Assembly: GCA_902500995.1 (NCBI GenBank)
Contig: CABVSR010000018.1
Span: 43,803 to 87,216 of the forward strand
Reading direction: 5' to 3'
Origin: an uncultured Nitrospira sp.
Lineage (GTDB): Bacteria > Nitrospirota > Nitrospiria > Nitrospirales > Nitrospiraceae
Length of the DNA stretch: 43,414 nucleotides
Part shown: piece after piece, positions 40,487 through 43,414 of the stretch
How positions within the stretch are numbered: position 1 is the stretch's first letter
Layout of the letters: each line of letters begins with the position of its first letter
Notes under the pieces: generated by a model
What the model was told of the DNA's origin: nothing
The model's database searches: none
What the model saw: the letters and a program-made list of their open reading frames with translations, nothing else
Translations under genes and position numbers: made by a program

Positions 40487-40589
40487 CTCTCCTGTCTCGC
40501 TAGGGAATTCATCTGGCTGAATCGCCTCCTGCTGCCATGACCCGGCAGATAATCCATGCCTAGTACATCGACCACAACAGATTACATCC

Positions 40590-40719
40590 TGACAGGATGC
40601 TCAAAATGGCCGTCCAGCAAGGCCGCAGCCAAGTGAAGAGCCGAGGCGTACCCTCGCGGTACGTTGAGGGTCTGAACGAGGCGAGAACGCCGCTGGCGGA
40701 CGTTTTCAGCATTCTGTCA
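40590..40719. repeat. Palindromic repeat, copy A (about 130 bp)
   Basis: It is bounded by TGACAGGATGC (40590) and the inverted GCATTCTGTCA (ending 40719), one mismatch apart. The centre is CGTACCCTCGCGGTACG, an inverted repeat. Its left 40 bases are identical to copy C. Its right end lies inside the FAD-monooxygenase gene, supplying the last three codons and the stop. Confidence 0.8.
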
Positions 40720-41974
40720 CGCGGGCATTCGGATCCGGCAGGAATCCTGCGGCCATGATCCGATCCACTAATGAGAAGGGCGGTTGGCTTCGTAATCCCG
40801 CCGTGGTCGAAAGCACACGATAACGAAGTCGCGCATTCCGGTCGAGCGTGCGAAACACGCGATCGCGCAGGTAGGCCAGCAGCGGGTTGCCGGTGTTCCA
40901 GAACCGGCATTGTTCATCCGCCAGTCGCTGCAACATCATCACCTGCGGCCGGCGGGCAATTTCAAAAGCGCGCAAGGCTTTCGCAGAAAAGTCGTTCTCC
41001 TTCAGCCAGCGGGGAATGAGATCAGCCACCGTCACCGCATCCACCATCGCTTGCATACGCCCTTGAGAAGCGTGGGGATTCATCGCATGGGCGGCGTCGC
41101 CGATGAGCAACGCGCCATCCGCCACCCATCGATCGGTCCGGACGCGCCCCGTGGGCATGTAGCCGGTCTGGCTCCAATCGACGAGGCCTGGGACGATCCC
41201 TTCCATAGCGGGATCGATCCGGATCCAGGCGCGCCGTAACGCGTCGAGTCCCTGGGCTTTCACGGCTTCATATGAGCCGGCCTTGATCATATAGAAGGCG
41301 TAGACCTGTTGCCCGGCTGCGGGAAATAATCCCAGAATTTCACGCTTCCCGACCAGATACCGCGCCTCATTGAACTCCGGTGGGGCCTTGAGAATGGCAA
41401 TGAGGTAGCTCTGCGGATACCGATAGAGATTCGCTGAAATGCCGAGCGATTCGCGAACCTTGGAAAACGCGCCGTCCGCCCCGACAACCAGTCGCGCGGA
41501 CACTTCCATCGGCTCACCGTGACGAGTCGCGTGCAAGCCGATCACTCGACTGCCGTCGAAGCGGAGTCCGGTGAAGGTGGCATCGTACCAGAGTCCGTCA
41601 GGATTCTGTTTCTCCAACGCATCGAGAATGGCATGGTGCGCGACATTGGGCAGCGTCACCACCGCCCGATTGTATGGAGCGGGCAGGTCACTGTAATCCA
41701 CGGTGCAGAGGCGTTCGCCTCCCGACCGGCAGAAATTGAACCGCTGCACCGATCGAACGGCATGAGTCGGCAACTTATCCAGCAACCCCAGTCGATCGAG
41801 CACCTGCTGGCCGTTCGGCTGCAGAATTTCACCGCGCAGACCCTGTGGCGGTCCGACGGCCCGCTCCACCACCAAGGAGCGCACCCCCTGCTGCGCGAGC
41901 AACAGGGCCAACACGGCGCCGCCGCCGCCCGCGCCGACAATCGCCACATCCGTCTCTATTCTCGCGTGCCCCAT
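40706..41974 (-). CDS. FAD-dependent monooxygenase
   Basis: The 422-residue protein has an N-terminal FAD-binding fold (VAIVGAGGGGAVLALLLAQQ, then VVERAVGPPQGLRGEILQPN) and LIGDAAHAMNPHASQGRMQA, the GDAAH motif of the p-hydroxybenzoate-hydroxylase/UbiH group. Such enzymes hydroxylate aromatic or quinone-like substrates; the true substrate is unknown. The ATG at 41974 follows TAGGGA. Eight bases separate it from the PLD-like stop, so they form one operon. Its last residues (TEC) and stop come from repeat copy A, so the native C-terminus may have been altered. Confidence 0.9.
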   Translation of the reverse strand: MGHARIETDVAIVGAGGGGAVLALLLAQQGVRSLVVERAVGPPQGLRGEILQPNGQQVLDRLGLLDKLPTHAVRSVQRFNFCRSGGERLCTVDYSDLPAPYNRAVVTLPNVAHHAILDALEKQNPDGLWYDATFTGLRFDGSRVIGLHATRHGEPMEVSARLVVGADGAFSKVRESLGISANLYRYPQSYLIAILKAPPEFNEARYLVGKREILGLFPAAGQQVYAFYMIKAGSYEAVKAQGLDALRRAWIRIDPAMEGIVPGLVDWSQTGYMPTGRVRTDRWVADGALLIGDAAHAMNPHASQGRMQAMVDAVTVADLIPRWLKENDFSAKALRAFEIARRPQVMMLQRLADEQCRFWNTGNPLLAYLRDRVFRTLDRNARLRYRVLSTTAGLRSQPPFSLVDRIMAAGFLPDPNARVTEC

Positions 41975-41982
41975 CGAAGTCC

Positions 41983-42525
41983 CTACTCTGTCCAGCCGGC
42001 AAAACGTTCGTGGTCGTTCCACATGGATATAAATTTCTCGCGGACCTTGGCCGTCAGCCGCGCATCGGTGATGACATCGAGCCGCTCATCATTGTACCGG
42101 TTACCGCTCGTGGTGTGGTTCGCCGATCCGGAGGTATTGATCAGATCATCGATGACGGCCTGCTTGAGATGCATCAATGCATCATGCCGGTTGATCCTGA
42201 TGGGCACACCTGCCAATCGCAATGTCTTCACGGCGCTCAGTTGTTTCGGGTCATTGAGACGTTCGCGATCGGTGATGACCCGGACATCGACCCCGCGATG
42301 TTTCGCTTCCACCAATGCCTTCACCACCGGCGGCGCCGTCAATCCGTAGACCGACACGTAAATATAGCTGCGTGCCCGGTCATATAACTGCACCAGATGA
42401 TCGATGGGGCGATCTTCGGGGGCATAGTAGACATCAATCGTGGCGGCCCAGACCGGTAACTGCGGCCAATAGGCCAATCCGACAACCATCAAGGCGATCA
42501 CGGGAAGACAGGTCGGACGACTCAT
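41983..42525 (-). CDS. Secreted single-HKD phospholipase D-like protein
   Basis: The 180-residue protein has a signal-peptide-like start (CLPVIALMVVGLAYW, then PVWA) and one HKD motif in ALMHLKQAVIDD (H119, K121, D126). Single-HKD proteins of this size usually dimerise to form the active site and act as nucleases (Nuc-like) or phospholipases. ITDRERLND and SGSANHTTSGN also match the family. The ATG at 42525 is preferred; the frame stays open upstream through the gap into repeat copy B. Confidence 0.85.
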   Translation of the reverse strand: MSRPTCLPVIALMVVGLAYWPQLPVWAATIDVYYAPEDRPIDHLVQLYDRARSYIYVSVYGLTAPPVVKALVEAKHRGVDVRVITDRERLNDPKQLSAVKTLRLAGVPIRINRHDALMHLKQAVIDDLINTSGSANHTTSGNRYNDERLDVITDARLTAKVREKFISMWNDHERFAGWTE

Positions 42526-42605
42526 GCGTGGCCTAACTAGAAGAAGAGATTCGATGAACACAGGTGAATGTCGATGATTTACACATAAAGCACAGATGGA
42601 TTTCC

Positions 42606-42730
42606 GCAGGATGCTCAAAACGTTCGCCCAGCAAGGCCGCAGCCAATGAAGATCCTCAACGTACCCTTGCGGTACGTTGAGGATCTGAATGACGCGAGAA
42701 CGCCGCTGGCGGAAGTTTTCAGCATCCTGC
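42606..42730. repeat. Palindromic repeat, copy B (about 125 bp)
   Basis: GCAGGATGC (42606-42614) and GCATCCTGC (42722-42730) are perfect inverted ends. The centre is a perfect 15-bp inverted repeat, GATCCTCAACGTACC and its complement, around the loop CTTGC. The arms (CAGCAAGGCCGCAGCC, then GAGAACGCCGCTGGCGG) match copy A. It lies between the PLD-like gene start and the 126-aa gene's stop. Confidence 0.85.
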
Positions 42731-42739
42731 TAGATGGGA

Positions 42740-43120
42740 TCACTCGAGGTCAAAAAGCGTTCGAAAATGGTCGTCGGATTCTTCCCAGGCTTGAGGCGAA
42801 GTCGTGGACAACCACTCACGCAAAAATCCCTTCTGTTCCGGGGTCAACATCTGTTTAATCTGGTGCGTGCGCCCTTGCAGGGGTTGGAGAAACCCGGCGC
42901 GAGTCTTGAAATCCAGCGTGGCCGTCCGCACATACATATTCGTATACATGGTGGGGCGCTCGTCTTCGCCTTCGCCCTGGACCCATACCGAAAGAAATTT
43001 TTCCATCTGCAGCCCGGCGCTATCCAGGGCCGGTTCGGCATCGTCATGAAACAACTCGTTTTCTGATTCTTGTAAGGGAGCCGCCTCATGGGCGCGAAAC
43101 AAGAAATTTTTCTTCCACAT
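42740..43120 (-). CDS. Hypothetical protein
   Basis: I do not recognise this 126-residue protein. It begins MWKKNFLFRAHEAAPLQESE, is acidic in the middle, and contains VRTATLDFKTRAGFLQPLQG, then QMLTPEQKGFLREWL. It is probably cytoplasmic. The ATG at 43120 follows GGAGGG. It is flanked by repeat copies B and C. A promoter-like sequence lies just upstream. Confidence 0.65.
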   Translation of the reverse strand: MWKKNFLFRAHEAAPLQESENELFHDDAEPALDSAGLQMEKFLSVWVQGEGEDERPTMYTNMYVRTATLDFKTRAGFLQPLQGRTHQIKQMLTPEQKGFLREWLSTTSPQAWEESDDHFRTLFDLE

Positions 43121-43143
43121 ACCTACCCTCCAGACGGGCGCAT

Positions 43144-43171
43144 ACTGTAAGCTAGGCGTGGTGAAAGTCAA
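43144..43171 (-). promoter_or_regulatory. Promoter-like sequence for the 126-aa gene
   Basis: On the minus strand TTGACT (43171-43166) is followed after 16 bases by TACAGT (43149-43144). The predicted start of transcription would lie about 17 bases before the ATG at 43120, leaving room for the ribosome-binding site GGAGGG. Confidence 0.5.
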
Positions 43172-43241
43172 GAAAGCGGCCGCCTCTCCCGTACGACTTC
43201 GCAGCAAGCTTCTCGTCGCGACCTGTTGGGGGTCGATCGCC

Positions 43242-43271
43242 TTGACAACACAAGAACGCGTTTGCTAACTT
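43242..43271 (+). promoter_or_regulatory. Possible plus-strand promoter
   Basis: TTGACA (43242-43247) is followed after 18 bases by TAACTT (43266-43271), with TG just before the -10. No gene is visible downstream before the window ends, apart from repeat copy C, so it may serve a gene beyond the edge or be chance. Confidence 0.25.
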
Positions 43272-43360
43272 CTTGAAATTCTTTAGCAGTTTGCTGCACC
43301 GTCACGGTGAGTTCCTTGAAACATGGAACACCCACACTAGGGCACAACACGAATACCCGT

Positions 43361-43414
43361 TGACAGGATGCTCAAAATGGCCGTCCAGCAAGGCCGCAGC
43401 GAACGAAGGGACGA
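43361..43414. repeat. Palindromic repeat, copy C, cut by the window edge
   Basis: TGACAGGATGCTCAAAATGG followed by CCGTCCAGCAAGGCCGCAGC is identical to the left 40 bases of copy A. The rest is outside the window. Confidence 0.85.

Follow-up and report, generated by a model that had tools for sequence, protein, structure and literature searches.

The palindromic repeat found three times toward the right-hand end of the window (the whole 43,414-nucleotide stretch analyzed here, from an uncultured Nitrospira sp.) is, with a probability of about 0.85, a non-autonomous transposon, or MITE, of the IS5 family whose core resembles a selected structured RNA. The element is short, is present in many copies, and carries no transposase gene. 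It is an IS5-type MITE by each sequence test, namely, its ends, its target duplication, an empty site, and its partner family.

Structure, range, and partner transposases of the element

The complete element measures 199 bp and consists of a 76-bp left arm and a 123-bp palindromic core, with inverted ends of 15 to 17 bp. The left inverted end reads CAGGCTGCGGAAAAA(CT), and the right inverted end is the right edge of the core. Flank alignment revealed that the left arm of ~76 bp is common to many copies and begins with the right end in inverted form; in intact copies, the left inverted end lies 75 to 78 bp left of the core. The core's left edge matches the right end only imperfectly: a conserved C takes the place of G at position 10 and creates a C.C mismatch in 31 of 33 copies in the source genome (G000) and in 113 of 127 copies across the order. 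Searching the source genome for the end sequence TARCAGGMTGYKGAAAAA with up to two mismatches returned 80 sites, mostly paired at 202 to 207 bp, against 2 for the reversed control.

The target-site duplications that the first-pass annotation had suggested looking for were also found, as 4-bp YTAR repeats. YTAR follows the core directly in 53 of 123 copies order-wide (1.9 expected) and in 31 of 56 copies in the source genome (0.9 expected). When YTAR is present on both sides, the four-mers are identical in 13/15 cases order-wide and 11/14 in the source genome. This is the reported target motif of IS5 elements (PMC10359306). Furthermore, at locus L027 the 199-bp element lies between CTAA and CTAA in the source genome and in G016, and a precise empty site, with contiguous flanks and a single CTGA, is found at the same locus in five genomes (G044, G011, G009, G018, and G013).

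The copy number proved far higher than the about five copies that the first-pass annotation had set as its lower line. A strict core motif (GGCCGCAG, 42 to 70 bases, GAGAAC, 3 bases, and GCTG) detected at least 52 copies in the source genome and none in the reversed control, and BLAST gave at least 43 matches to the repeat. Across 395 genomes of the phylum, the motif occurred in 128, the highest count in a single genome being 129; 126 of these carriers belong to Nitrospirales, and the only two motif-bearing genomes outside the order (G341 and G248) had one match each. Named carriers include N. defluvii and many Nitrospira metagenome-assembled genomes. The first-pass annotation was thus right that similar sequences occur in Nitrospira, and the family is Nitrospirales specific. 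Three tandem cores with a 131-bp period are found in the source genome at C34:5100-5481 (L256). No earlier description of the family or its sequence was found in the open-access papers searched.

Candidate partners came from the DDE_Tnp_1 loci of the genus. Among them, locus L059 of N. defluvii (G024) contains an insertion sequence (IS) bounded by TTAG-CAGGCTGCGGAAAAA and TTTTTCCGCAGCCTG-TTAG, with ends identical to those of the element. Its transposase frame (L059:848-2171) encodes a 342-aa product assigned to IS5_4 (NF033581, 278.9 bits against a cutoff of 140; PF05598 and PF01609). Related ISs with the same ends, within one mismatch, are present in G069, G141, G064, G001, and G020, and several relatives of the L059 IS have longer open frames, of 374 to 377 aa. 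The 15- to 17-bp ends of the MITE are likewise identical to those of the ISs in L101 to L106. The element thus has in common with this YTAR-duplicating IS5 group both identical inverted ends and the 4-bp YTAR duplication, but it lacks the transposase gene, and its interior is unrelated to the ISs examined. Judged on these autonomous elements, the interior is not a shrunken IS. The source genome yielded no transposase whose ends match exactly; the only DDE_Tnp_1 element there (on contig C45) has diverged ends, CAGTGTGTTGACAAA. A different DDE_Tnp_1 IS, of 327 aa, is present in 14 copies in G004.

Mobilization would take place in trans, with an IS5-family transposase inserting the element at YTAR and duplicating those 4 bp. 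The earlier suggestion of a MITE-like element moved by an enzyme encoded elsewhere is accordingly supported by the inverted ends, the YTAR duplications, the empty site, and the IS5-family ISs of sister genomes.

Copies in the window and their position at gene ends

The window ends at the last base of contig C18. A covariance model (R1) built from 33 copies of the source genome identified exactly three core matches in the window and no fourth, confirming the three palindromic copies of the first-pass annotation. The copies lie where it had placed them, but a complete element (~199 bp) extends farther to the left, with an arm that has decayed in copies A and B.

The core of copy A, of the 123-bp type, occupies positions 40593 to 40716 of the plus strand (132 bits, E = 6e-27) and also belongs to the BLAST family; its right inverted end (40702 to 40716, plus strand) is part of the core. 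A decayed left arm spans 40513 to 40592 on the same strand, its left-end position being estimated from distance and from the orthologues in G009 and G014; the left inverted end is no longer recognizable in the window sequence. The orthologue of this site (A1) in G014 has the long form with a perfect TTAG/TTAG duplication. Copy B has its core at 42607 to 42729 of the plus strand (135 bits, E = 1e-27), with orthologues in 12 other genomes. Its right inverted end (42715 to 42729, plus strand) is again part of the core and is followed by CTAG at 42730 to 42733 (plus strand), which its sequence and the family-wide YTAR excess mark as the right-hand target repeat. Another CTAG, at 42537 to 42540, may be the left partner of this repeat, the left inverted end having decayed. 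Both cores fold far below their shuffles (z = -4.9 for A, folded as DNA, and z = -9.7 for B, folded as RNA). Two recognizable ends with both duplications are absent in A and B, which are decayed copies; the assignment of the family is based on the intact ones.

For copy C, the window contains the first 51 core positions (43364 to 43414, plus strand; 38.6 bits, 3' truncated). The copy stops where contig C18 ends, at base 87,216, which is the last base of the window. Contig C43 opens with the same ~55 bases and contains the whole core (C43:5-127), with a thiS/cysO-like gene after it. The assembly breaks inside copy C, and C18 very probably adjoins C43. The first-pass annotation had seen this copy as cut before its center; the contig end is the cause.

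The neighboring genes lie on the minus strand. An FAD-binding_3 monooxygenase-like gene (40706 to 41974; PF01494) reaches into core A, the right end of which supplies its stop codon and last residues (open reading frame to 40706). A gene for a PLD-like protein (41983 to 42525; PF13091) lies between A and B, and a 126-aa open reading frame (42740 to 43120), which had no Pfam match and is not assigned to a family, stops ~10 bp right of core B.

Insertions that often fall exactly on stop codons explain, on statistical grounds, the location of the copies at gene ends. Among genes running toward the right end, the right YTAR contains the stop codon in 37 of 69 cases order-wide and 15 of 30 in the source genome; the left repeat holds the stop far less often (5 order-wide and 7 in the source genome). 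It is mostly the core side that abuts the gene end, by 38 to 5 order-wide and by 15 to 7 in the source genome. Since YTAR contains TAG or TAA, such insertions spare the neighboring gene.

At site A, the orientation of the element differs among species. Inversion was considered as the cause and dropped, as there are two subsites, each with a fixed orientation: A1 adjoins the FAD gene stop, A2 lies ~100 bp further, and G018 and G006 carry both. At A2, the hairpin center is replaced by another repeat (GTGAAGCGT / CTCGCGAAC type) in G010 and G001 and by yet another sequence in G023 and G013. Repeats of the GTGAAGCGT type also flank several copies in the source genome (L002, L004, and L012).

Two readings would give the element a different kind of mobility. 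The first-pass annotation had described the copies as dividing the region into cassettes, and imperfect palindromes of attC-like length between genes could be taken for integron recombination sites. This view is not supported: the FAD, PLD, 126-aa, and cysO/thiS genes apparently follow one another in the same order in G004, where none of the sites A, B, and C holds an element, so the insertions took place between genes that were already neighbors. The 4-bp duplications also speak against attC-like sites, as does the source genome, where no IntI scored above the cutoff (TIGR02249; best partial match of 80 bits against 265) and the search met only generic tyrosine recombinases; we regard this reading as practically excluded. 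Scarcely more credible is a REP/BIME element mobilized by a RAYT (Y1) transposase, which the same annotation had offered for a repeat that is indeed short, palindromic, intergenic, and present in many copies. PF01797 had no match in the source genome (control genomes did match), and the family instead has target duplications, inverted ends of the DDE type, and IS5 elements that match it, so this idea is already refuted as stated.

RNA-like conservation of the core hairpin

The paired structure of the core is strongly maintained. In a MAFFT alignment of the source genome's copies, compensatory (two-sided) changes occurred in 25 of 41 pairs, and 96.1% of pair cells were paired; none of 500 shuffles had as many compensatory changes, and no shuffle reached the paired fraction. 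Slid control structures decreased the paired cells to 31 to 41% and the compensatory pairs to 4 to 8. Additionally, the inner stems of 127 order-wide copies hold 152 G.T against 43 A.C cells, compared with 25 against 34 in the terminal stem (Fisher p = 6e-7; cells are not phylogenetically independent and were counted without tree correction). Each of the four gene contexts shows the G.T excess, which is weaker among 34 representatives less than 80% identical (inner stems, 47 against 19; terminal stem, 8 against 10). Because a G.T on one strand is an A.C on the other, an excess on one strand points to a single-stranded molecule, most simply RNA. The unpaired motifs GGCCGCAG and GAGAAC are conserved as well, and the core had no Rfam match up to E = 5.

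The core is a hairpin of 123 nt whose internal-loop motifs are conserved. Covariation together with the G.T excess suggests that it is selected for its single-stranded structure, most likely as RNA of the strand read in the CAGGATGC-to-GCATCCTG orientation. Gene orientation relative to this putative RNA strand is mixed, which makes a single cis role for all copies unlikely. The alternative first proposed for the repeat, a structured RNA or a binding site at gene ends, is supported in part: covariation and strand-asymmetric G.T cells argue for a selected RNA structure, and stop-codon insertion explains the position, while the RNA function itself is inferred.

Resident copies, possible functions, and significance

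Comparison of 22 congeneric stretches around the FAD gene indicated that individual copies are old. Within-site identity is 90.1% at B (13 genomes) and 88.8% at C (18 genomes), values biased upwards insofar as copies without recognizable similarity would be missed; B and C of the same genome are 81% identical, and the 4-fold sites of the FAD gene are 53.5% identical between the same genomes. The flanks left of the core are less conserved than the B and C copies, and the nearest neighbor of a B or C copy is the same site in 30 of 31 cases. The best guard against the upward bias is site D, between cysM and moeB (L291:1304-1428 on C43 of the source genome; orthologues L269 to L290), which holds one or two copies in 21 of the 21 genomes where it was delimited. 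In G004, the site D copy is the only one of the family found in the genome (L288, C1:598200-605400); apart from it, the family was either lost there or never acquired.

At site D, about 5 to 12 bp separate the end of the element from the moeB/thiF start codon. The 5' base of the hairpin carries a purine-rich, Shine-Dalgarno (SD)-like stretch, and the hairpin may bridge this stretch and the moeB start codon. Two element subtypes are found there, alone or as tandem pairs; in the pairs, a copy of the cysM C-terminal end separates the two. Copies B, C, and D, around the FAD/PLD and cysO-cysM-moeB genes, appear to have persisted for as long as the genus has existed, under purifying selection, and because of this retention, their action in cis is probable. 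Resident copies would act as hairpins in transcripts at gene borders, influencing stability, attenuation, or translational coupling, a mechanism to which we give even odds. More tentative is the proposal that a previously undescribed structured RNA, specific to Nitrospirales and carried as cargo between IS5-type ends, was recruited as a standing intercistronic regulatory hairpin; at site D, it may bridge the SD-like stretch and the start codon, and G004 has kept only that copy.

Other explanations of the hairpin fit parts of these data. It could belong to a purely selfish MITE, maintained only in moving master copies (for instance, as an aid to transposase synapsis or replication, or as a way to evade host control) while resident copies decay neutrally. 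Recent copies are indeed 93 to 96% identical, many left arms and left ends have decayed, and a G.T excess equal in every gene context is what a property of the family, rather than of the site, would produce. However, the B and C copies are vertically inherited and far more conserved than 4-fold sites, and site D is occupied in all delimited genomes, including the one where it is the sole copy found, so we consider this reading rather improbable. Bidirectional intrinsic terminators spread by transposition seem somewhat less probable still. The A-tract, GC stem, and T-tract layout on both strands would suit them, as would copies kept beside stop codons with the core side mostly abutting the gene end. 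Nevertheless, the T-tract pairs with the A-tract inside the stem, a terminator/promoter scan does not call the cores, and the strand that shows the RNA-like excess of G.T is antisense to the genes that the cores abut. Moreover, site D is situated 5 bp ahead of moeB, inside what appears to be a cysO-cysM-moeB operon. Bacterial palindromes are also corrected by DNA-level events such as template switching, quasi-palindrome correction, and cruciform extrusion. The arms are long and close together, and hairpin-templated DNA repair could also yield covariation in a palindrome without selection on RNA. Such correction should treat both strands alike, in contrast to the G.T bias of the inner stems that the terminal stem does not share, and it should have erased the unpaired GGCCGCAG and GAGAAC motifs and the C.C mismatch, which are kept; among these three explanations, it is the one we hold least likely.

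A mobile element with a selected RNA-like core, the reading that we favor, has partial counterparts in other bacteria. ERIC/IRU elements are ~127 bp in size. They are intergenic imperfect palindromes that affect transcripts at gene 3' ends (PMC10969869); compared by description rather than by sequence, the element here differs from them in its left arm, YTAR duplications, and candidate autonomous ISs. The Correia elements of Neisseria are MITEs of ~200 bp with more than 100 copies, and their hairpin transcripts are cleaved by RNase III (PMC10969869). They resemble the present family as many-copy MITEs of similar size with a hairpin, a likeness of description and not of ends or target, but their host is different, and the present family extends over a whole order and shows covariation. 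QMITE2 of Coxiella, located mainly in 3' untranslated regions (PMC10969869), is alike in its gene-end position, by description only and in a different host.

On these sequence comparisons, the family is an unusual IS5-type MITE, with a core not derived from an IS, a conserved RNA-like structure, an order-wide range, and copies long retained at fixed positions. The usual view of MITEs is that they are young by-products of insertion sequences and in decay, and the family described here departs from it. It also provides a practical mask for the annotation and assembly of Nitrospira genomes, as illustrated by the contig break inside a copy. Finally, nitrifiers, in which gene regulation is poorly understood, become a setting where one can test at what point a MITE turns into a regulatory RNA.
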